Below are positions 1,590-11,980 of a stretch of 64,000 bases of DNA, piece by piece. The stretch's first letter is position 1. Each line of letters opens with the position of its first letter. This stretch comes from Seonamhaeicola aphaedonensis (GTDB lineage Bacteria > Bacteroidota > Bacteroidia > Flavobacteriales > Flavobacteriaceae). The notes below the pieces were generated by a model. It saw nothing but the letters and a program-made list of their open reading frames with translations, was not told the DNA's origin and ran no database searches. The position numbers and the translations under genes are program-made. The stretch is taken from NCBI RefSeq assembly GCF_003386195.1, contig NZ_QRDX01000001.1, positions 1 through 64,000 on the forward strand, in the 5' to 3' direction.

Positions 1590-2534
1590 TTAATAACTTT
1601 TCTCTGAGATTAATTTTCCTTTTTTATACGTTTGCTCCTTGAGTAGTTTCCCATCCCTATCCCATAACTTCCAAACTCCATTTGGTTTTCCACTTTTAAA
1701 TGACGATTCGTATTCCATCTGCCCATTGTCGAACCAATGTTGCCACAGACCTTCTTGTCTTCCATTATTCGTCATTCCTTTGCCCATTAGTTGTCCATTT
1801 TGGTGCCATGCTCTTAATAATCCATTTTCTTGTCCGTCTAAAAATGTTACTTCCTCTTTTAACTTTCCATTCTCATACCACCATTGTGCAAGGCCTTCTT
1901 TTTTATCGTTCTTGAAGGTTGCTTTCTCTCTTAACTGTCCGTTCTCATACCACCATTCCACAAGGCCTTCCATTAAATCTTTCTTCTTTGTTCCTTTGGA
2001 TTTTAATTGACCATTCTCATGCCATTCAAGCAAAACGCCTTCTGCTTTATTTTCTATATAAGTGCCCTCAAAACTTAACTGCCCATTTTCATACCACTCT
2101 TTGTCAAACCCTTCTATTTTACCATCCCTATTTGTTTGTTCTCGTTTTAATTGCCCATTTTCATACCACTCTTTTGCAACACCTTCAATTTTATCATTTT
2201 TTTTTGGTGTTTGTCTCATTAACTGACCATTTTCATACCACTTTTTGATGACACCATTGGCTATTCCATTATTATAAGTTACTTCATAACTTAACTGCCC
2301 ATTTTCATACCATTTTTTGCTAATACCATTTAATTTACCATTCTTGATGGTTAATTCTTCCTTTAATTGTCCATTCTCATGAAAATATTTGATTTTCCCT
2401 GAAATTATGGTCGAGTCTTTTTTTGAAACAAAAAGCTCCCCAATTTTATTGATATCATTAAAATCAATAATTTCTTTCTCCTGGCCGATGTTAATAAGTG
2501 GAATTAGGAACAGTAGAATTAATACCTTTTTCAT
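1590..2534 (-). CDS. Secreted YwqK/MORN-like repeat protein, 314 aa
   Basis: A signal peptide (residues 1-17) is followed by eleven tandem repeats of 24 residues (72 bp), each built on W[YH]ENGQL-x9-G-x3-G, from about residue 46 to the end. This is the repeat of COG2849 proteins, often annotated as the antitoxin component of YwqJK because of a MORN-like motif. No toxin-like gene is adjacent and the protein is predicted to be exported, so an antitoxin role is doubtful here; such repeats more likely form an extended beta surface. A LytTR-type direct repeat lies at 2611-2640, 76 bp upstream of the ATG, with a possible -7 box (AATCTTTG, minus strand) at 2572-2579. Confidence 0.75.
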   Translation of the reverse strand: MKKVLILLFLIPLINIGQEKEIIDFNDINKIGELFVSKKDSTIISGKIKYFHENGQLKEELTIKNGKLNGISKKWYENGQLSYEVTYNNGIANGVIKKWYENGQLMRQTPKKNDKIEGVAKEWYENGQLKREQTNRDGKIEGFDKEWYENGQLSFEGTYIENKAEGVLLEWHENGQLKSKGTKKKDLMEGLVEWWYENGQLREKATFKNDKKEGLAQWWYENGKLKEEVTFLDGQENGLLRAWHQNGQLMGKGMTNNGRQEGLWQHWFDNGQMEYESSFKSGKPNGVWKLWDRDGKLLKEQTYKKGKLISEKSY

Positions 2535-2610: not shown

Positions 2611-2640
2611 GTCAAACACAAATATCTGAATGACGAACAC
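2611..2640 (-). promoter_or_regulatory. LytTR-type operator, site A (upstream of the YwqK-like gene)
   Basis: On the plus strand two 9-mers, GTCAAACAC (2611-2619) and GACGAACAC (2632-2640), are separated by 12 bp, giving a 21-bp period. In the gene direction the halves read GTGTTCGTC and GTGTTTGAC, followed by GAAA. The element ends 31 bp upstream of a -7-like box, a usual activator position. That the kinase/regulator pair at 3856-5708 binds it is inferred from the architecture and proximity. Confidence 0.6.
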
Positions 2641-2689
2641 TTAAATTATAATATATTATTCAACTTTAAACTTGAACAATGAAAATAAT

Positions 2690-3760
2690 TTAATAATCAC
2701 TAAAAACCTCATAGGTTAAAGTTATTCCTATCTCATGTTCAGTGCCAGGGTTATCATGTAATTTATAGGCTAATTTTAAATCGTAATCGATCATTTGAGA
2801 AAGAAAATTATTTGAGAAAGTTTGCAAAAACTGCCCTTCTATAGAACGACTTCCTTGTTCTAAATCTGGGGAAACACTTCCAAGCACCTCAAAAGGGCAA
2901 AACACTTTTTTAAATTCATAATCTTCATTGAATCCTATCACTATCCATGGAAATGGATTTTTAATGTTCTCATACCCTCTTAAAAAATTGGTTACAAATT
3001 TTACTGGTCTGATGGATTTGATTTTTTCAAAATTTAAATGATTATCTGAAGCAATGTTATTAAGTCGATAATTATTCGCTTTAGCCATCCCTGAAAAATA
3101 GTATTCGTTCGTTTCTTCTGCAATAAAATTAAAATTATAGGTCACCTCGATAATATCCTTCTTTAAATTGAAAAGAGGCACCATAGCAAACGTTTTTACA
3201 TCACTCCATAAGCTAAATTTTTCAGAAAGATTAACCCTGTCAAATATTTTTGACCGCATTCTATAGGCCACATAAACAGTGTCTTGTGTAATTTTTAGAG
3301 AATCAGAAAAATGTTTATAGAAAGGATGATTAATCCCATTGATTAACCAATAATAACGCCTATTAGTGCGATAAAAGCCTGTTGTACCTTGATTAATTAT
3401 AACACCATTTTCCCTGACAACACCCAATCGATGGAATTTTTCATAATCCAAACAATTGTAAGGATGGTCTAATTGAAAATATTTCAACTCGAAATAATTC
3501 GCATCTTTTGGCGCTTTCCACTTAATTTCAACGACTTCATCCCCATAAATTATGGGGATAATTGAATTATTATCAGGAGACGTTATAACGGGCTTTACAT
3601 AAACAGGTGTATATTGTAGACTATCTGGCGTTGGACTACTACTTTCACAGGGGTCGGTAATTTGAAATGCTGGATTATGGCTATCGGTATTACATGAAAG
3701 TACACATAAGAACAAAGCCGTTAACTTAAGCCAAGACAAATATCTCATTTTTAAAACCAT
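2690..3760 (-). CDS. Hypothetical lipoprotein, about 352-356 aa
   Basis: A lipoprotein signal is clear: a hydrophobic stretch ending in the lipobox CVLSC, with the lipidated Cys near residue 23 of the long form. The start at 3748 (MRYLSWLKL) gives a compact signal and is preferred over the one at 3760. Residues 50-100 (ITSPDNNSIIP then VEIKWKAP) resemble a fibronectin-III/Ig-like strand pattern; the rest is unrecognised. The protein probably faces the outer membrane or periplasm. The region just upstream (3763-3826) is a decayed copy of the C-terminus of the 1061-1549 gene, so the 5' end of this gene sits on recombined DNA. No operator repeat precedes it. Confidence 0.6.
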   Translation of the reverse strand: MVLKMRYLSWLKLTALFLCVLSCNTDSHNPAFQITDPCESSSPTPDSLQYTPVYVKPVITSPDNNSIIPIIYGDEVVEIKWKAPKDANYFELKYFQLDHPYNCLDYEKFHRLGVVRENGVIINQGTTGFYRTNRRYYWLINGINHPFYKHFSDSLKITQDTVYVAYRMRSKIFDRVNLSEKFSLWSDVKTFAMVPLFNLKKDIIEVTYNFNFIAEETNEYYFSGMAKANNYRLNNIASDNHLNFEKIKSIRPVKFVTNFLRGYENIKNPFPWIVIGFNEDYEFKKVFCPFEVLGSVSPDLEQGSRSIEGQFLQTFSNNFLSQMIDYDLKLAYKLHDNPGTEHEIGITLTYEVFSDY

Positions 3761-3830
3761 TTTTTAGTGTATTAATTCCTATGAAAGGATCAAAACCAGG
3801 CCCCAGGTATTTTTTTAAAATTTTTTACAC
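3726..3830 (-). pseudogene. Second remnant of the 1061-1549 gene family
   Basis: Read on the minus strand from about 3826, the frame gives YLGPGFDPFIGINTLK, paralleling YLFKFGFEPFIGIHTLK in the intact protein at 1061-1549. After LK the similarity is lost and the frame runs on to TAA at 3726-3728, overlapping the 5' end of the lipoprotein gene in another frame. Only the C-terminal piece survives, with no start and no upstream part of the gene. Confidence 0.55.
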
Positions 3831-3855
3831 CTTATTTTCATTTTAACCTCCTGTT

Positions 3856-4572
3856 TTATTGATTTGTGTCATTTACGATTTTCATAAACTCTTCTTTAAA
3901 TTTTAGCCCTATGGGGATTTTATGTTTTTGTATGGTAATTTGATTGCCACTAATGCTTGTCATTTTTTTGAAATTAATAGCAAACGATTTGTGGGTTCTG
4001 ATAAACATTTTCTTTGGTAGGGAATCTAAAACTGATGTAAACGTTGCATTAGTTAATATGTATTTATCATCTAAATGTGCTTTTACATAATCACCATAAG
4101 CTTCTACAAACAAAATATCTTCAAAGTTGATTTTATGAAGGGTTTTGTTCGATTTAATGAATATGAATCGCTCGTCTTCCGATTGGTTTCCATTTGTTTG
4201 TTTGCCATTAGAGAATCTTTTTTCAAGTACTTTATTCACTGCCGTAAAAAACCGTTCAAATGAAAATGGCTTCAACAAAAAATCGATGGCGTTTACCTCA
4301 AACCCATCTACGGCATATTGCGGATAAGCAGTTGTAAAGATAACATGAGGCGGGTTTTGTAATGATTTGTAAAAGGTTAATCCTGAAATTTTGGGCATGT
4401 TTACATCCAAAAATAGCAGGTCGATATCATTGAGTTCTTTTAGTTTTTCAATAGCTTCAATGGCATTATCGCAAACAGCTCTCAATTCTAAAAAATCAAC
4501 ATCTTCTATAAATTTTTTCAGAACAGTTTGAGAAGCCGGCTCATCGTCTATTATTAAGCAATTAATTTTCAT
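3856..4572 (-). CDS. LytTR-family response regulator, 238 aa
   Basis: The N-terminal receiver domain (about residues 3-120) has the acidic pair D9-D10 and the phospho-acceptor D56 in LFLDVNMPKISG, followed by the TTAYPQYAVDGF and LLKPF motifs. The C-terminal LytTR DNA-binding domain (about 135-238) contains FIFIKSNKTLHKI, VEAYGDYVKAHL and FIRTHKSFAINF. The family usually binds paired 9-bp direct repeats about 21 bp apart as a dimer. It lies 62 bp behind the histidine kinase at 4635-5708 and is surely its partner. Five matching direct repeats occur within 8 kb, in front of neighbouring envelope genes. Confidence 0.93.
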   Translation of the reverse strand: MKINCLIIDDEPASQTVLKKFIEDVDFLELRAVCDNAIEAIEKLKELNDIDLLFLDVNMPKISGLTFYKSLQNPPHVIFTTAYPQYAVDGFEVNAIDFLLKPFSFERFFTAVNKVLEKRFSNGKQTNGNQSEDERFIFIKSNKTLHKINFEDILFVEAYGDYVKAHLDDKYILTNATFTSVLDSLPKKMFIRTHKSFAINFKKMTSISGNQITIQKHKIPIGLKFKEEFMKIVNDTNQ

Positions 4573-4634
4573 CTGTATGTTTTATTTTTTTTAATGGTCA
4601 GATGCCATTCACCTCACAACCATCTTGGAGGGTA

Positions 4635-5708
4635 TCAAGATTTGTGGTAGCTCATTTCATGCTTATGCAGTTTTAAAATCACTCCAAAAGTATCCTTGGT
4701 TTTCACTATTTTAAATTCATGGGTTTTAGCATAAATAATCTCAAGATTTTTCTTGATATTCTCCAATCCAACACCCGAATGTTGGTTGGGTTTCAATTGG
4801 TCCGGCGAGTAATTATTCTCAATGTGAAACATGAATTCGTCATTTTGCAGTGATAAATCAATATTAAGAAAGTTATTATTTATATCCCCCTTAATCCCAT
4901 ATTTAAAACTGTTTTCTACTAAAGGTATTAATAGCATAGGATAGATTTGGTAATTTTCGTTATCGACCTTACAATTAAATTTGATATTTCCTGTTTCCTT
5001 TTGCCTAAACTTCTGAAATTCGATATAATTTTTTAATAGGGTTATTTCATCCTTTAAAGCTACGCGTGGCGTGTTCGAGTCGTAAATCACATACCGTAAA
5101 ATATCAGAAAGCTGTACAATGGCATCCTTAGTCTCTATCTTTTTTTCGATGGCCAAGGCGTAAATCACATTAAGCGAATTGAACAAAAAATGCGGATTTA
5201 TTTGCGATCTTAACAAAGAAAGCTGAGTCTGTATTTGTTTATTTTTCATTTTTAGTTCACGGTTTTCTTGGCGGTTAAAATAGAACCAATCTACCGAGAG
5301 CTTTATTAAGGTAGTACCACCCAACAACAAGCTGTAAATAGTAAATAAAGTGGTGTTGGAGTGGTAACTTATAAAGTAATAATCTGGAAAAAGGTAGTCG
5401 AGGGAGCGTTCAAAATACAAAGTACTTAACTTAGAAAATACTAAAAGGTTAATGACGAAAGTGATAAGATACAACAGGTATTTTTCGGATTTTAATAACT
5501 TCGGAATCAAGATGAAAAAATTAATGAGTACCGGTGCTAGGGCTGTTAATAAAAAACCAACTGTGTAAATGACATCGATCGGATAAGGATGTAGACTTTC
5601 TGCAAAAACAAAAAGGAACACAACAAATAAGCATGCCCATAATACCAAATTAAATAGTATATTATCTCTTAAAGACATACTGGCAGCTCGTGTAGCAAAA
5701 TTGTTCAT
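4635..5708 (-). CDS. LytS/YehU-type sensor histidine kinase, 357 aa
   Basis: Four predicted transmembrane segments (about residues 17-37, 47-69, 77-97, 117-137) are followed by a short coiled linker and the His_kinase domain. The phospho-acceptor His173 lies in RSQINPHFLFNSLN. The ATPase part has the N box with Asn266 (LVENSFKYG) and the G box GVGLENIKK (312-320). There is no large periplasmic sensor domain, so the signal is probably sensed in or near the membrane. The gene precedes its LytTR regulator on the same transcript. A single half-site-like GTCAAAGAG (5735-5743) lies just upstream, without a 21-bp partner. Confidence 0.93.
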   Translation of the reverse strand: MNNFATRAASMSLRDNILFNLVLWACLFVVFLFVFAESLHPYPIDVIYTVGFLLTALAPVLINFFILIPKLLKSEKYLLYLITFVINLLVFSKLSTLYFERSLDYLFPDYYFISYHSNTTLFTIYSLLLGGTTLIKLSVDWFYFNRQENRELKMKNKQIQTQLSLLRSQINPHFLFNSLNVIYALAIEKKIETKDAIVQLSDILRYVIYDSNTPRVALKDEITLLKNYIEFQKFRQKETGNIKFNCKVDNENYQIYPMLLIPLVENSFKYGIKGDINNNFLNIDLSLQNDEFMFHIENNYSPDQLKPNQHSGVGLENIKKNLEIIYAKTHEFKIVKTKDTFGVILKLHKHEMSYHKS

Positions 5709-5759
5709 GTTTTTAGTTTTTTAATCACTAATGTGTCAAAGAGAAATCTTAGTTATCTT

Positions 5760-6611
5760 TTAATCTCTTGTTAGATATAGATAATGAAGTATTCCCCAAA
5801 AATCTTCCTTTTCACTGTATTTAATCCATTTATCATCATCCTTGGCATATTTTTTTATAAACTTTACCAACTCCTCCGATCTCGCTGTTAATAATAAATA
5901 ATCCTCGTACCCCATACCAAAGGAAGTGGTAGCATTTACATAATCATAAGCATTGGTCGCTTTTTGGTGGCTTATTTTTATTTTATGGGCATCAATAAGG
6001 TCACTAAGCTGTCGTTCATCAATAAAATTTAAATAAACCATGTTATTAGATTTAATTTTCAGTCTTATTAGTGAATGAGTAGCAACTATGTGGGCTTTAA
6101 AAAAAAGATTGCTATCAGGTTTATCTTCACTGTAATTGTTGTTACTGCAATCACGTTGGTATATGGGCATTAAATCAATAAACAATTGGTTTTCAATATT
6201 AAAAGGGGTGCCAATAAATATGGTGCTTGTTTCACCTTTCCTATGAATTATGGCATATGCATTCTTATAATGTTCATGCTCTTCTAAATCTTTTTTGTAT
6301 CTAAATAACACATCATCTAATCCTTCAATATTTTTAAAATTATCCTTATTATGTTCGAGGGGCACGTATGGATTTACATGATAGTTAAAAAGAAAATCTT
6401 TAAATTTTTGTACCTCCCAACTGCCCCTTGGAATTTCATAATCTTCATCATCATTTACAAGTTCAGGTTCCATCCAGTTGCCTATCAGTCTTGGTTCAAA
6501 ATAAACTACGTCTTTTGTGTAAAATGGGTTATAGGATATAACAATATTTGAACATGAGTTGAAAAACAATGTTGCACCTATAATTGCCAACCAAAATTTG
6601 ATTCTTTTCAT
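5760..6611 (-). CDS. Hypothetical lipoprotein, paralogue 1, 283 aa
   Basis: No known family is recognised. A lipoprotein signal ends in the lipobox FNSC (Cys20). The mature part shares blocks with the next upstream gene product (6758-7411): NPFYTKDVVYFEPRLIGNW, PFNIENQLFIDLMP and LTARSEELVKFIKKYA, so the two genes are tandem paralogues. This copy has acidic insertions near residues 53-63 and 155-165 and a longer tail. A LytTR-type direct repeat at 6672-6701 lies 60 bp upstream of the ATG. Location is probably periplasmic or outer-membrane anchored. Confidence 0.7.
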   Translation of the reverse strand: MKRIKFWLAIIGATLFFNSCSNIVISYNPFYTKDVVYFEPRLIGNWMEPELVNDDEDYEIPRGSWEVQKFKDFLFNYHVNPYVPLEHNKDNFKNIEGLDDVLFRYKKDLEEHEHYKNAYAIIHRKGETSTIFIGTPFNIENQLFIDLMPIYQRDCSNNNYSEDKPDSNLFFKAHIVATHSLIRLKIKSNNMVYLNFIDERQLSDLIDAHKIKISHQKATNAYDYVNATTSFGMGYEDYLLLTARSEELVKFIKKYAKDDDKWIKYSEKEDFWGILHYLYLTRD

Positions 6612-6671
6612 AAGACCTCAACTTATTATTTACAATTTAAGAAGAAAAACCATACCTTTTCAAGCAAATTC

Positions 6672-6701
6672 GTCAAACACATTGATTTAGGAGGTAAACA
6701 A
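6672..6701 (-). promoter_or_regulatory. LytTR-type operator, site B (upstream of lipoprotein paralogue 1)
   Basis: Plus-strand halves are GTCAAACAC (6672-6680) and GGTAAACAA (6693-6701), with a 12-bp spacer and 21-bp period. The first half is preceded by AATTC, as in the other sites. The second half is the most divergent of the five elements. It lies 60 bp upstream of the ATG at 6611. Confidence 0.55.
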
Positions 6702-6757
6702 TTTTATGTATCTCAGTCACACCCAATTTAGTCATATATTAAGCAATGGTAACTAAC

Positions 6758-7411
6758 TTATTTTCTTTTAAGGATAAATTCAACATCCGTTTTCCATTTG
6801 TCTATATCTTCAGAAGCGATATATTTTTCAACGAATTTTACCAATTCTTCTGAAGAAGCGGTTAAAACAATGTCTTCGTCTAATCCAATTTTTTCGTGCT
6901 TAATATTGATTTTATTTGCTTTTAAAAGGGCTTCCAATTTATCTGAGTCAAGCCATTTAATACTTATGTTTTCTTTGGAATCCATGTCTAACTTAACCAA
7001 GGCATGGGAGCCGATTAAATGCATTTTGTAGACATCATTTATATGTTTGAGACTTTCGTTATCATCTACTGGGGTAAAATCTAGAAATAGCTGATTCTTA
7101 ATTTTAAAGGGCACTACAAGAAAAGCGGCTTTGGAACTGTCTTTTTCATAATTTACATAGTAGCTTATGTTGTTATACTTACTATACTTTTTGTGCGATT
7201 CCTTATCGAGATCTCGTTCTACTTCCTTAAAAACTTGCTGAAATGATTTTACATTCCAAACGCCATTACCCTGATCTACCCAATTGCCTTCAAATTTTGG
7301 TTCGTAATGAAGCACATTATTAGTATAAAATGGATGCAAAGAATTTACGATGCATGAGGTCAAAAATAGTGCAAAAACTATAAATACTGAAAAGGATTGA
7401 ATTGTTTTCAT
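6758..7411 (-). CDS. Hypothetical lipoprotein, paralogue 2, 217 aa
   Basis: The lipobox LTSC places the lipidated cysteine at residue 20, followed by the conserved N-terminal block HPFYTNNVLHYEPKFEGNW. The blocks PFKIKNQLFLDFTP and LTASSEELVKFVEKYIASE match paralogue 1 (5760-6611), but this protein is shorter and lacks its acidic insertions. No enzymatic motif is visible. Its own LytTR-type direct repeat (7477-7506) sits 65 bp upstream of the ATG, nearly the same distance as for paralogue 1, which suggests that promoter and gene were duplicated together. Confidence 0.7.
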   Translation of the reverse strand: MKTIQSFSVFIVFALFLTSCIVNSLHPFYTNNVLHYEPKFEGNWVDQGNGVWNVKSFQQVFKEVERDLDKESHKKYSKYNNISYYVNYEKDSSKAAFLVVPFKIKNQLFLDFTPVDDNESLKHINDVYKMHLIGSHALVKLDMDSKENISIKWLDSDKLEALLKANKINIKHEKIGLDEDIVLTASSEELVKFVEKYIASEDIDKWKTDVEFILKRK

Positions 7412-7476
7412 AATACTAAATTTAAGTTAATTGAAGTCAAAACAAAACCAAAACAGCTTCAAAATCAACAAATTTC

Positions 7477-7506
7477 GTCCAATACTGACTGAAGGTCGTC
7501 AAACAC
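7477..7506 (-). promoter_or_regulatory. LytTR-type operator, site C (upstream of lipoprotein paralogue 2)
   Basis: Plus-strand halves are GTCCAATAC (7477-7485) and GTCAAACAC (7498-7506), with a 12-bp spacer and 21-bp period. AAATTTC precedes the first half. The site sits between the stop codon of the 7512-8177 gene and the gene at 6758-7411. Confidence 0.65.
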
Positions 7507-7511
7507 AGGAT

Positions 7512-8177
7512 TTAATTTATTCGCTGATATATTTTTTTATATTTCGACTTTGAGGCAAAATTAATGGCGGGTATTATAAACCCAGGATAAAACACCCCTC
7601 CCGATTCGAATTCGGATGCCTCTAAAAGCAAATTATTATCTTCAAATAGTGCCAAGCGGGTTCTTTTTTTATTAATTCCACCTAAAACATAGGGAATGCC
7701 TATTATTTTAAAGTTCCTGTGTTTTATATGCACAAAACCATCTTCCTTTAGTTTGTATCTAACACTATTTTTTCTAACAACAAGATTATCTTCAAGATAA
7801 TCAATTTCAATACGCTTTAAGTTTAAAATTTTTAAGGAAAATGTATATTCTTTTTCAGAATTCATTTTTAAGCGCTTTACCAATATACCATTATTGATTT
7901 CTTCAAATAGCGTAGGGTATCTATTTAAATCCTCATTGAAAACACTCTTATAAATAATACTATCTTTTGAATCAGGATAACAATGTTTCATGGCATAAGT
8001 GCCTTCTATTAAATTTATGTTATTAAGGTTGATATGGCAAATTGAAGGTGTTTGCGTTTTGGGAAAAGAGGCACAACCTAAGCATAGATTTAATATTATG
8101 AAACCAGCAATTAATTGATAAGAGGCAAGGCCTCTGGTAGATTTAAAAAAAGTTATTTTTTTCATGATTATAACCAT
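7512..8177 (-). CDS. Hypothetical lipoprotein, 217-221 aa
   Basis: No family is recognised. A hydrophobic N-terminus ends in the lipobox LCLGC (Cys about 35), so it is probably a lipoprotein. The natural start may be ATG at 8165 (MKKITFFKS) rather than 8177. The mature part is beta-rich and basic. A glycine-bearing hydrophobic segment near the C-terminus (GGVFYPGFIIPAINFASK) may be membrane-associated. It follows the beta-barrel gene 8246-8749 after 68 bp with no operator of its own, so co-transcription from site D is plausible. Confidence 0.55.
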   Translation of the reverse strand: MVIIMKKITFFKSTRGLASYQLIAGFIILNLCLGCASFPKTQTPSICHINLNNINLIEGTYAMKHCYPDSKDSIIYKSVFNEDLNRYPTLFEEINNGILVKRLKMNSEKEYTFSLKILNLKRIEIDYLEDNLVVRKNSVRYKLKEDGFVHIKHRNFKIIGIPYVLGGINKKRTRLALFEDNNLLLEASEFESGGVFYPGFIIPAINFASKSKYKKIYQRIN

Positions 8178-8245
8178 TAATTATACAATCTACCAAGGGC
8201 CAATTATAACAAGTATTTGAAATTATTACAATAGGTATGATGGTG

Positions 8246-8749
8246 TTAAAACATGTAGCCAACCCCCACAAACAATCCATGTAATTTAAGAGAAGCATCA
8301 AAGAAATCATCTCCGGCCAAATTAGAGAGCCCTAGTGAATATCTAGCCTCAACCAAAAACTTTTTGGTAATATCATAAGAAAGCCCAAAGTCAAGACCAA
8401 AATTAAACGATTTTGAACCTTCCTCTGTATCCAATAAAAACCCAAAGCTTGGGCCTGCCAAGGCATTAAACTTGTCTGAAAGTCCTATTTCAGCTAAAAT
8501 TGGAATTTGGATTTGATCTAAATCATTTATGTTAATGTAATTAGTTTCTGGCCTAATTTTAAAACTTTCCGAGATGTTTAATCTTGCAAAAAGCCCAATA
8601 TAAACCCCGGTTTCATTTTCGCTTATACTAAATCCATCAAATTCTGCTTTGGCGGTTGCGAAATCTGCACCTGCCCTCATTCCAAAATTTTGGGCATATA
8701 AACTCATGATACTAATTAAAAGTACTGTTGTTAGGATAATTTTTTTCAT
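8246..8749 (-). CDS. Small outer-membrane beta-barrel protein, 167 aa
   Basis: A signal peptide (residues 1-19, ending SLYAQ) is followed by about eight amphipathic strands with alternating hydrophobic residues and glycine-rich turns, ending in GLFVGVGYMF. The terminal Phe is typical of outer-membrane barrels. The pattern fits the PorT/OmpX-like barrel families common in Bacteroidota (RxGADFA near the start, YSLGLSNL near the end). A LytTR-type direct repeat (8834-8863) lies 84 bp upstream. Ligand and precise role are unknown. Confidence 0.75.
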   Translation of the reverse strand: MKKIILTTVLLISIMSLYAQNFGMRAGADFATAKAEFDGFSISENETGVYIGLFARLNISESFKIRPETNYININDLDQIQIPILAEIGLSDKFNALAGPSFGFLLDTEEGSKSFNFGLDFGLSYDITKKFLVEARYSLGLSNLAGDDFFDASLKLHGLFVGVGYMF

Positions 8750-8833
8750 GTTAATTAATTTTAAGTTAGTGATTTAAATTATGATTTATCATAATGAAAG
8801 TAAGATTAATACTCTTGTGAAATAATAAATTTC

Positions 8834-8863
8834 GACAAACAAGGTTCGCTGGGGGTCAAACAC
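8834..8863 (-). promoter_or_regulatory. LytTR-type operator, site D (upstream of the beta-barrel gene)
   Basis: Plus-strand halves are GACAAACAA (8834-8842) and GTCAAACAC (8855-8863), with a 12-bp spacer and 21-bp period. AAATTTC precedes the first half, exactly as in site C. It lies 84 bp upstream of the ATG at 8749; a weak -7-like box (TACTTTCA, minus) is at 8796-8803. Confidence 0.62.
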
Positions 8864-9010
8864 TAAAAGATATTGAACATCTTTGGCCACGTTTTTAATT
8901 GATATTTTCAACGCTCAAGCGTCTTATAAATGGCACTGCTTTGGGTAATTAGATCATAAAACAAGGTCCACAGAACGGCCAATAATGATAAAATCCATCA
9001 AAGCCAATGT

Positions 9011-9835
9011 TTAAAAAAACACTCCTATGCCTAATGTGATCATGGAAAAATCTTGCGAACCAATCTTAAGATGCTCATAACCTCCCATAACTTTGTATTG
9101 TTTTACATGGTAATTTAAAAGGCCATTAAATTTATTAATGGTTTGTGAGTTTATATACGTTTGGCTAAAATTAACTTCTAAACTCATGGGTTTCGCAAAA
9201 AACAATTCGGCTCCCAAACCATAGGTAAATCCAAATTCATCAACACTACCATCAACATAAGTTGTTCCAAGGCCCCAATACAAGTCAAATTTTTCTGTTC
9301 GAACGCGGTAGTATTTGGCTAGTAAGCTGTACAATGCCAAATGGTCCTTGCCAAAATTGGGGTTGTTTTCCCATAGTTGCAAATAGTCTAGTTCGGCACC
9401 CATGCGTTTAAGAAAACGCATATCCAAATTTAGGTGCATGCCCTTTAGATTATTGTTTTCGGATATATAATAACCAGATAGATCGGCTCTAAAAAAATTG
9501 ATTTCTTCCTCATTGGGAGAAAAGTTATAATTGCCTTTATTTAAGGTGTAATACGGGCGTTTTGTAATACCAGCTGTACTGGCATGGTTTCCATATTCAA
9601 AAGGTGATTCGATAAGCGTATAGTAACTTACGGACAAAACAGCTTCGGCGGCGTAATAAGCTATGACCGCTACGAAAGAATCATCGTAATCACTGTCATG
9701 ATGGTTGTTTGACGACCTGGACACCTTTTGATCATTATCCTTTAAACTACCTTCTGCTTTGCCAAGCTTGGTTTGGGAATAGCTTTGTGCCGAAAGAAAA
9801 AACATAAGTAAAAAACAACATGTAACTTTTTTCAT
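9011..9835 (-). CDS. Hypothetical outer-membrane protein, 274 aa
   Basis: A signal peptide (residues 1-20, ending AQSYSQ) precedes a polar linker rich in Ser, His and Asp, then a hydrophobic segment (VAVIAYYAAEAVLSVSYY, about 55-72). Residues 95-274 look like beta strands of an outer-membrane barrel and end in ITLGIGVFF. No named family is recognised. It follows the TPR gene (9863-11476) after only 27 bp, so the two are very probably one transcript under site E. The TPR protein could act with this barrel, which is an inference from linkage only. Confidence 0.65.
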   Translation of the reverse strand: MKKVTCCFLLMFFLSAQSYSQTKLGKAEGSLKDNDQKVSRSSNNHHDSDYDDSFVAVIAYYAAEAVLSVSYYTLIESPFEYGNHASTAGITKRPYYTLNKGNYNFSPNEEEINFFRADLSGYYISENNNLKGMHLNLDMRFLKRMGAELDYLQLWENNPNFGKDHLALYSLLAKYYRVRTEKFDLYWGLGTTYVDGSVDEFGFTYGLGAELFFAKPMSLEVNFSQTYINSQTINKFNGLLNYHVKQYKVMGGYEHLKIGSQDFSMITLGIGVFF

Positions 9836-9862
9836 ATCAAATAAATTAAAAGTAAATCTTTA

Positions 9863-11476
9863 TTATTTATCATTACAATAATCTGCCAATAATTTGTCGC
9901 ATAAAGCACAATCGCCTCCTCCATTTATTTCCCTAGCTTTTTCAATATTGCCTTTGGCTGTTTTGATATCTCCATTGTAGATTTGATAAATAGCGTATTG
10001 CATTAGTAAATTATAGGCGTCGGTATTGCTATTAACATATCTTCTGGCCTTATCTAACTGAAAAATAGGTGGTAACTTAGAGCCTTTTAGGATGTTGATA
10101 TGCGCTAATAACCGTAATGCATCAAAATGATCAGGGTTTATTTCCCTAACTTTTCTGCAATAGCCTTCGGCTTTGTGTATATCGCCATTTAAATAATAAT
10201 CGTTTGCCAATTTTATTTGGTCATCCAATGTATTTTTAATATCGGATTCATTGGCTATTTTTTCATGAATTAATTTTCTAAAATTTAAAGTATCGGACTT
10301 TTGCAAGTAAATAAGTCCTAAATTGCCGTAACACTCATTCAAGTTAAAATCCTTTGACCCTTTTTCTGTTGGAAAAACCCTAATCGCCTCGTTAAAATAA
10401 AAGATAGTCTTTTCCCAATCTCTTAACATAAAATAGACAAAACCATAACATTTAAAAAGTGAATAGTCATTTAGTTTTTTATCTGTTTCTAAAAGTGCCA
10501 ATATTTTAATTATTTCATGAAGCTTGTTCATTTCATAATCGTTAATATTCAAAAATATAGTTTCAAGATTCTTCCATTGTTGATATTTAAAATCATTATA
10601 ATTAGTGATTTCAGAATTATCAGGGGCACCACTTGAAGCTAGTTTTGCGAAAAGACCAAGAATATCTGCCATGACTCGGGCATTTTGAATTTCTTGATTA
10701 GCTTTACATTTAGAGGCGTAGGAATCTAATATTTTGAAGTCTAATATTTCATCATAGCTTCTTTCTTTAAAGGATTTGCTTATACTCTCCTTCTCCTTTA
10801 ATTTTGCAAGTTCAGGAAGCTTATTAAAGGTTTCATTTATTATTAACCAAATATAGGGAACGGTTGCACATTCTGAATTGGCGATCAAACGCTTAATATA
10901 AGAATCTGCTTCTTTAAGCTTACCTTTTTCAATCAATAAGATAGGATAAAAGATTAGAGCGATGGAATCTGTTGGCTTTAATTGAACAGCCTTTTTAAAA
11001 TCACTCAGAGCTGTTGTTGTGTCACTTAATTTTAATTTTAAGAGCCCTCGGAAAGAATAATAAGAGGCACTATCCTTACTCATATCTTTTATAGGTTTAC
11101 GGAATTTGGTATTTAAGTTTTTATACGCCTTGGAATAGTATTGTTTTGCCAATTTAGTTTGATTAACCTCTGTGTAATAATCAGCTATGTCCTTTAGGTA
11201 AAATGGATTTAAGCTATCCTTTTTCAACTCACCTATAAGCTGATTTAAATATTTTTCATCCTTAACTTTAATACTCTCTATTTCGGCATAACTTTGTTTA
11301 GTATCTTTAGTTGAAATGTTGAATGAAAATTCCTTTTCAGGAAGAAATAATATTTTTGCCAAATCCATCAATGAACTGTTTTTATCTGGTGCAGAAAAAC
11401 TTACTCCACCTTGATTCTGACCCAACAAATTCATTGAAAACAATATGCTTATAAGGACTAGAATGCTACGTTTCAT
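9863..11476 (-). CDS. Secreted TPR-repeat protein, 537 aa
   Basis: A signal peptide (about residues 1-19, ending NLLGQ) is followed by tetratricopeptide repeats: clear units at about 100-130 (YTEVNQTKLAKQYYSKAY), 145-180 (SYYSFRGLLKLKLSDTTTAL), 350-380 (WEKTIFYFNEAIRVFP) and 425-460 (YYLNGDIHKAEGYCRKVREI). TPR solenoids bind protein partners; nothing indicates an enzyme. The C-terminus has a CALC cysteine pair. It heads a two-gene unit with the barrel protein at 9011-9835. A LytTR-type direct repeat lies 312 bp upstream (11789-11818), much farther than for the other targets. Confidence 0.8.
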   Translation of the reverse strand: MKRSILVLISILFSMNLLGQNQGGVSFSAPDKNSSLMDLAKILFLPEKEFSFNISTKDTKQSYAEIESIKVKDEKYLNQLIGELKKDSLNPFYLKDIADYYTEVNQTKLAKQYYSKAYKNLNTKFRKPIKDMSKDSASYYSFRGLLKLKLSDTTTALSDFKKAVQLKPTDSIALIFYPILLIEKGKLKEADSYIKRLIANSECATVPYIWLIINETFNKLPELAKLKEKESISKSFKERSYDEILDFKILDSYASKCKANQEIQNARVMADILGLFAKLASSGAPDNSEITNYNDFKYQQWKNLETIFLNINDYEMNKLHEIIKILALLETDKKLNDYSLFKCYGFVYFMLRDWEKTIFYFNEAIRVFPTEKGSKDFNLNECYGNLGLIYLQKSDTLNFRKLIHEKIANESDIKNTLDDQIKLANDYYLNGDIHKAEGYCRKVREINPDHFDALRLLAHINILKGSKLPPIFQLDKARRYVNSNTDAYNLLMQYAIYQIYNGDIKTAKGNIEKAREINGGGDCALCDKLLADYCNDK

Positions 11477-11980
11477 ACTTTTTTCTTTTATTTAATAATT
11501 CTTCAATCATATTTCTAAAATAACCATTTAAGTTATAGAACGTGTCCAAGATTGTCTAAGGCGGATAATCTTGGATAGGAAAAGACAATCACAGCGATTA
11601 CATGAATATTTCAACCTGAATATATATTTCAATGAGCTCTGCTTTTGGACAAATCAATACAAAGCAAGAACACCATATTATTCCATAGCCTAAAATTAAA
11701 AAAGAGAAATAGCACTCTATTATTAAGGCATACCAGTTTATTTCAAAACAAATTAAGGAAGATTATTTCCTAAAAATCAACGAATTTCGTTGAACAAGCT
11801 CTTTTGAATGTCAAACACTGTAGAAGGAACCATAGCAACAAAAAAACAAAATATACTTACCCAGTAAATGTTTATATATTCTATTTTTCGAAACCAAACA
11901 ATGTGTTTAAACTTTAACCCAAAGTTAAACCTTGAATACGGTTAAATAAGTAACTTTAGAATTAATAAAAAGATATAAGT
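11477..11980. other. 504-bp spacer with LytTR-type site E and a hairpin
   Basis: No gene is visible on either strand. The spacer contains operator site E (11789-11818). It also holds a 9-bp inverted repeat TCCAAGATT (11545-11553) / AATCTTGGA (11567-11575) with a 13-nt loop, lying within the predicted 5' leader of the TPR gene. Near 11909-11934 there is a weak imperfect dyad that could end the porin transcript. The long leader could hide a small RNA, but no clear promoter-terminator pair was found. Confidence 0.5.
11789..11818 (-). promoter_or_regulatory. LytTR-type operator, site E (upstream of the TPR-barrel unit)
   Basis: Plus-strand halves are GTTGAACAA (11789-11797) and GTCAAACAC (11810-11818), with a 12-bp spacer and 21-bp period. 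The element is preceded by GAATTTC, like sites C and D. It is 312 bp from the TPR start codon, so it either works on a promoter with a long leader or serves an unseen transcript. Confidence 0.55.

Follow-up and report, generated by a model that had tools for sequence, protein, structure and literature searches.

A putative self-activating LytTR two-component operon, marked by 9-12-9 direct repeats and locally expanded in Seonamhaeicola aphaedonensis

We analysed a 64,000-nt stretch of the genome of Seonamhaeicola aphaedonensis (NZ_QRDX01000001.1; hereafter the window; the whole genome measures 3.5 Mb), in which five copies of a direct-repeat element span 9.2 kb around the genes of a LytS-type histidine kinase and a LytTR response regulator. 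We consider it very probable that these genes encode an autoregulated LytTR two-component system, to which adjacent envelope genes have been recruited in this lineage; we infer that the regulator binds the elements and activates the genes behind them. The widely conserved core is a predicted three-gene operon, encoding in this order a lipoprotein, a kinase with a short sensor part and the LytTR regulator. A local LytTR regulon around its own kinase and regulator had been proposed in a first-pass annotation of this DNA, and it is supported here by the clustering of strong matches, by the link between element and operon in 24 of 25 genomes and by related operons in another class.

Five elements of one geometry

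The five elements that had been annotated were all found, on the minus strand and oriented toward the genes. They are listed with their scores against the weight matrix described below.

2611..2640, minus strand: element 1, 76 bp upstream of the MORN-repeat (YwqK-like) gene; score 29.3; counterpart before the same gene in Aestuariivivens insulae, L059:14683-14718
6672..6701, minus strand: element 2, 60 bp upstream of lipoprotein A; score 22.8; A. insulae counterpart, L059:10710-10745
7477..7506, minus strand: element 3, 65 bp upstream of lipoprotein B; score 28.7; the element conserved across genera
8834..8863, minus strand: element 4, 84 bp upstream of the 167-aa outer-membrane beta-barrel gene; score 34.7; kept at the orthologues in genomes G183, G211 and G383
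11789..11818, minus strand: element 5, 312 bp upstream of the TPR/beta-barrel pair; score 31.0; widest gap, so that the assignment is less certain

The geometry claimed for them, 9 + 12 + 9 bp with repeat starts 21 bp apart, is exact at all five sites. At this period each site matches 14-15 of the 16 core positions, and the other periods between 15 and 29 give 10-13. No exact double match of the pattern occurs in the window, all five sites being imperfect. Agreement among the sites reaches 76% at repeat positions and 30% at spacer positions. When up to three mismatches are allowed, the window holds five matches against 0.97 expected, a number reached by none of 100 shuffles. Two details of the annotation hold in part: the trailing GAAATT is present at three sites, the other two reading GAATTT and GAAAAA, and an envelope-type gene follows every element, at 60-84 bp for four of them but at 312 bp for the fifth.

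A weight matrix was then built from 23 elements of other genomes, leaving out those of the window and of A. insulae. Scanned with this matrix, the window returns the five sites at ranks 1-5 (22.8-34.7) and a sixth at 11.4, the maxima in 20 random sequences of the same length being 7.4-18.4. A. insulae (Flavobacteriaceae, L059) carries lipoprotein B at 91% identity, and genome G405 was taken as its genome because the coordinates agree. The matrix detects four sites in 20.6 kb of its sequence, two of them preceding lipoproteins B and A, one the MORN gene and one a 272-aa frame. The 20-kb stretches of 10 other relatives give one hit of at least 20 each, upstream of lipoprotein B, those elements being themselves rows of the matrix. 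On this comparison, the five-site local set is a predicted expansion in this lineage.

The element accompanies a lipoprotein-kinase-regulator operon in Flavobacteriaceae

The genes at the centre of the cluster are the following.

3856..4572, minus strand: LytTR response regulator with receiver and LytTR domains, predicted to bind the elements; in 24 of the 25 operons of the family a homologue lies after the kinase
4635..5708, minus strand: LytS-type histidine kinase (PF06580) with a short membrane part, adjoining the regulator gene
5760..6611, minus strand: lipoprotein A, paralogue of B; same direction as the kinase, 51-bp gap
6758..7411, minus strand: lipoprotein B, conserved first gene of the operon

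Domain search confirmed the LytS/LytTR pair at 3856-5708, identifying Response_reg (1.1e-20) and LytTR (1.5e-15) in the regulator and His_kinase (PF06580, 2.6e-24) in the product of the adjacent gene. The kinase had been described as having no large sensor domain; indeed, His_kinase is its sole Pfam domain and three clear hydrophobic stretches lie in its first 100 residues. The paralogy of the two lipoproteins also stands, A being 34% identical to B and A. insulae A 37% identical to B. Profile searches found no match to this lipoprotein family in Pfam, in NCBIfam (beyond trivial scores) or among PDB sequences. The kinase and regulator genes start 51 bp and 62 bp after the preceding gene, and the matrix scan found no element between; both are probably transcribed from the lipoprotein promoters, judging from this arrangement.

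Lipoprotein B is patchily distributed. It is present in 11 of 149 family genomes and, by profile, in 25 of 397 (the own genome counted in both), and in none of the 6 other genomes of the same genus. In each of the 25 carriers a kinase gene comes after one or more lipoprotein genes, and in 24 the regulator is next, namely in 22 short loci, the window and A. insulae. The annotation had called for a motif scan in related flavobacteria, which places an element directly before the lipoprotein gene in 24 of the 25; the 25th genome, G183, has its element, with a perfect core, before the beta-barrel gene that there heads the same gene run. With a leave-one-out matrix, from which the tested element was removed and in which elements of close relatives and congeners were kept, the element was recovered before lipoprotein B in these 24 genomes, 61-68 bp from the start, with scores of 16.3-36.5; maxima in 60 random sequences each were 2.6-11.8. 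The plain consensus reaches at least 12/16 within 320 bp upstream in 22 of 25 genomes, and in 83 of 2500 random upstream-like sequences. G717, which lies outside the matrix, shows the same three genes and a score of 31.1, its congener G348 being in the matrix. The strictly best genome-wide match falls at the operon or a neighbouring target in 17 of the 25 lipoprotein-positive genomes; it is tied in five (G057, G069, G009, G356, G348) and unlisted in three (G135, G016, G311).

Two side observations concern these relatives. The 12-bp spacer (positions 10-21) is itself conserved in many of them (ATGAGTT...CC) and not at the five window sites; this perhaps points to a second factor or a DNA-bending preference. 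The lipoprotein operon of G016 (L049) looks degenerate: the kinase match contains stop codons, a search of 20 kb gave no regulator, and of 23 elements this one alone lacks the G of GAAA.

Related operons in another class

Of 395 genomes of the phylum searched by profile, 32 carry the lipoprotein; 28 of these belong to other families, and loci were read in 16 of the 28. The order lipoprotein, kinase, regulator is found at 14 of the 16. All 14 come from one family (f38, 7 genera; same phylum, other class), some being close relatives, and so they are not independent. Each of the 14 carries two GTTCAYCGA-like copies at period 21, with a mean match of 16.0/18 (range 14-18); other periods from 14 to 31 give means of 10.8-13.1, period 25 tying in 2 of the 14. 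The two distant lipoprotein loci without a kinase have repeat scores of 9 and 10. The motifs are alike, GTTTGWCGAAAT within Flavobacteriaceae and GTTCATCGAAWA outside it. Allowing up to three mismatches, the 14 distant genomes contain 2-5 matches each, in total 42 against 11 for the reversed control, and the operon site is strictly best in 10 of them and tied in 4 (G483, G472, G516, G703). The predicted lipoprotein-kinase-regulator operon is thus one that reaches beyond the class.

Predicted promoter layout and proposed mechanism

In order to locate promoters, 32 elements were aligned (5 from the window, 4 from A. insulae and 23 others). TTG starts 9 bp past the second repeat in 20 of the 32, and TTTG stands at +36 in 20 of the 32; the shuffled control, run for TTTG, gave at most 5. 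The flavobacterial -7 consensus is described in an excerpt of PMC9723704 as TAnnTTTG at -12 to -5. Since TAnnTTTG is placed at these positions, transcription would start about 44 nt past the repeat and the second repeat would lie near -48. For lipoprotein B this gives the following feature.

7438..7445, minus strand: TTGTTTTG, predicted -7 box in the promoter of lipoprotein B; TTG, which stands at +9 to +11 past the repeat, is predicted to serve as the -33 element

In the mechanism that we propose, the short-sensor kinase (4635-5708) would phosphorylate the LytTR regulator (3856-4572), and a pair of regulators would bind the 9-12-9 direct repeats, which face the same side of the helix at a distance of two turns. 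The regulator would then sit just upstream of a sigma-A type promoter, with TTG about 9 bp after repeat 2 and a TAnnTTTG-like box at +32 to +39, and, once bound, it would recruit RNA polymerase. The common target would be its own operon (lipoprotein, kinase, regulator), which would create positive feedback. In this lineage the same element would also control neighbours, namely the second lipoprotein, the small beta-barrel, the MORN-repeat protein and probably the TPR/beta-barrel pair. What the sequence shows directly is the element with its geometry, the order of the genes, their conservation and a promoter-like spacing. Co-transcription, a role for phosphorylation and feedback of the lipoprotein on the kinase are predicted, and the operon, locally expanded here, is probably self-activating.

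Evidence against the proposed regulon and alternative explanations

Several observations weigh against this mechanism. In the own genome, the motif allowing up to three mismatches is not enriched, with 53 matches against 66 for the reversed control, and adding GAAAT leaves 7 against 6; in 14 other genomes the loose motif gives 54 against 51. In G311 and G135 the elements are a poor fit to the plain consensus, with 10 and 9 of 16, and it was the matrix and their position that identified them. A site with at most one mismatch occurs in two of 138 lipoprotein-negative genomes, and in both cases no kinase-regulator pair lies within 1.5 kb of it. Among 19 kinase loci outside the system, two exceed a matrix score of 14 (14.9 and 18.3), and one other LytTR locus of the own genome (L058, contig 6) scores 24.4 and 17.8. 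In the window alone, TTG stands at +9 in 3 of 5 elements and an exact TTTG at +36 in 2 of 5. Finally, the class-level consensus was derived from the same sequences on which it was tested; the level of match there is therefore partly by construction, whereas the preference for 21 bp is not.

Because the loose motif is not enriched, we relied on strong matches, on position and on the matrix from other genomes. With at most two mismatches, the own genome contains 8 matches, of which 5 are the window sites; likewise, 5 of the 7 GAAAT-extended matches are the window sites. Pooled over 11 genomes, the loose motif gives 47 matches against 27 for the reversed control. The first-pass annotation had named an equal density across the genome, free of LytTR linkage, as what would speak against a regulon: strong matches, clustered in this 9.2 kb, do not behave in this way, although loose matches are indeed not enriched. 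Sites with at most one mismatch occur in 8 of 149 family genomes (reversed pattern, 1), that is in 6 of 11 lipoprotein-positive and 2 of 138 negative ones. One of the six, on contig 5 of G135 (one mismatch), was rejected as a regulon member, lying within a coding frame and away from the operon; the fair count is therefore 5/11, and the Fisher p = 8.9e-7 was for 6/11 versus 2/138.

Three further one-mismatch or single sites were recorded. Those of the two negative genomes, G026 and G021, were not accepted as regulon members and are kept as unexplained or chance; from the N-termini, the gene after the G026 site is presumably similar to a threonyl-tRNA synthetase gene and that after the G021 site to one for a SusC-type receptor. 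The one-mismatch element of lipoprotein-negative G026 (L164:1501-1534) has a similar spacer, and we read it as chance or a relic. In G405, a one-mismatch element on contig 22 (L146:1501-1534) lies far from the operon; the sequence downstream resembles, by eye, the lipoprotein B promoter of the same genome, and the next frame of at least 60 aa begins 224 bp on.

The elements might be bound by another regulator, for example the LytTR paralogue of contig 6, the local pair being mere neighbours. The two hits at L058 do indicate that elements of similar form may serve a paralogous regulator, and this regulator is, at 35-37% identity, the nearest of five paralogues. However, the element goes with the operon in 25 genomes and is absent at the two distant lipoprotein loci that lack a kinase. 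The other four LytTR loci of the own genome have no matrix hit of at least 14, and the maxima at the 19 kinase loci outside the system are 2.5-18.3, none above 20. Moreover, the kinase subfamily, as defined by profile score, tracks the lipoprotein: 14 held-out kinases, from lipoprotein-positive genomes and not among the profile rows, score 355-546 bits, and the best kinases of 17 lipoprotein-negative genomes 206-236 bits. We thus regard control by another regulator as improbable. A first version of this gap (461-579 bits in 10 positive genomes, with G016 at 301 and no negative above 236) was discarded as biased because the kinases of those 10 genomes are profile rows, and the 14 held-out kinases were therefore scored.

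Two of these outside loci deserve description in their own right. The kinase locus with the top score of the 19, 18.3, is L252, in a lipoprotein-negative family genome. On contig 6 of the own genome (G000), a LytTR/kinase pair (L058:7279-9062) lies between two similar sites of 21-bp period, L058:11043-11078 and L058:7225-7260; one precedes a gene that we take to be nagB-like and the other a gene presumably resembling that of a GH92 mannosidase; this locus may represent a second local regulon, sister to the present one and concerned with sugar use.

The regulator could instead bind the elements and repress, the kinase lifting the repression. The sign of control cannot be read from sequence. Yet the predicted -33 element is preceded by the repeats, which do not cover the -7 box or the start; this is the activating position in LytTR systems, as far as excerpts of PMC6193735 and PMC4227749 (AgrA, proximal repeat near -60) describe them. 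Repression appears quite unlikely to us on these grounds. A structural role of the repeats, or their spread by gene duplication, with no regulatory meaning in either case, is hardly credible: lipoproteins A and B are paralogues, and for this reason their promoters may share descent, but the other targets belong to different families, the repeats agree far better than the spacers, and the element keeps a preferred distance to the start and is conserved beyond the class.

Other predicted targets and neighbouring genes

The remaining genes around the elements are the following.

1590..2534, minus strand: MORN_2-repeat protein, predicted target
2690..3760, minus strand: 356-aa protein after the regulator, without a Pfam match; its A. 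insulae counterpart is 70% identical, and no element lies directly upstream
7512..8177, minus strand: 221-aa predicted protein, 68 bp after the beta-barrel gene
8246..8749, minus strand: 167-aa outer-membrane beta-barrel (OMP_b-brl), predicted target common to several genera
9011..9835, minus strand: 274-aa beta-barrel protein, 27 bp after the TPR gene
9863..11476, minus strand: TPR protein, predicted target of element 5

The 167-aa beta-barrel has orthologues of 61-68% identity in G183, G211 and G383, all adjoining the operon, and an element precedes the gene in 4 of 4 cases, counting that of the window (identities 61-100%). The 221-aa gene is possibly co-transcribed with it. The underlying search gave 32 matches, 30 with loci; 26 of these were weaker homologues, 25 of which gave readings (L182 none). 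The weaker homologues were rejected as targets, all 25 readings being 8-11/16. L190 repeats L184, L179 repeats L188 and L170 was read inside the gene, which leaves 22 distinct genes properly read. No frame of at least 80 aa is listed in the 312-bp gap that separates element 5 from the TPR gene (11477-11788); this gap may be a long leader or the remnant of a lost target gene.

Comparison with known LytTR systems

LytTR sites are described, in part of PMC4847170, as pairs of 9-11-nt repeats that stand 11-13 nt apart and share no general consensus; the 9-12-9 elements of the window and of its relatives have this form. A regulator with receiver and LytTR domains next to a PF06580 kinase also places the system in the broad LytTR two-component class. 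BtsS/BtsR and YpdA/YpdB of Escherichia coli likewise combine a histidine kinase with a LytTR response regulator, and YpdB binds a direct repeat according to the same excerpt (PMC4847170). BtsR is the top NCBIfam match of the regulator, yet at 120 bits against a cut-off of 246, which does not assign it to BtsR. BtsS is presented as a 7-transmembrane pyruvate receptor in the title of PMC10653868, whereas the kinase studied here matches the His_kinase model only and has three clear hydrophobic stretches. In contrast to both E. coli systems, a lipoprotein heads the operon, and control is predicted to act on envelope genes and on the operon itself.

The LytTR Regulatory Systems of Streptococcus mutans (HdrRM, BrsRM) are autoregulated through 9-bp repeats with mostly 12-bp spacers, often 10 bp upstream of -35; their LytTR regulator has a membrane inhibitor as its partner, and they are regarded there as a type separate from two-component systems (both points from part of PMC6193735). 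The direct repeats before the operon promoter are a shared trait. The histidine kinase and the receiver domain set the present system apart. In the staphylococcal agr system, the AgrA regulator is encoded within its own regulated operon, a trait predicted here too. Its repeat pair lies just upstream of the promoters, as an excerpt of PMC4227749 reports, and the repeat pairs described here are similarly close to the predicted promoters. However, the predicted targets differ from those of agr, and the regulator reaches 31 bits with the AgrA model, against a cut-off of 400, which does not make it an AgrA.

Significance

In the open-access literature, searched by titles and beginnings of abstracts, we did not find a description of the sites bound, or of the regulon controlled, by a LytTR protein from Bacteroidota; PMC8895600 and PMC11237479 are records in which both LytTR and Bacteroidetes occur. 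The related element before the same operon in distant relatives points to an undescribed and probably self-reinforcing envelope signalling system. A wider scheme is tempting, and we put it forward tentatively: in a three-component system of Bacteroidota, the lipoprotein would be more than an output, namely an essential sensor or feedback subunit of the small kinase that monitors the outer membrane and controls this kinase, and the regulator would amplify its own operon and, in some lineages, local outer-membrane genes. What the analysis offers is a site model that is specific and portable, together with a defined operon, the likely cognate regulator and a short list of targets. It also ties an unnamed lipoprotein family to a kinase subfamily, which raises the question of how small sensor-less kinases perceive the envelope.

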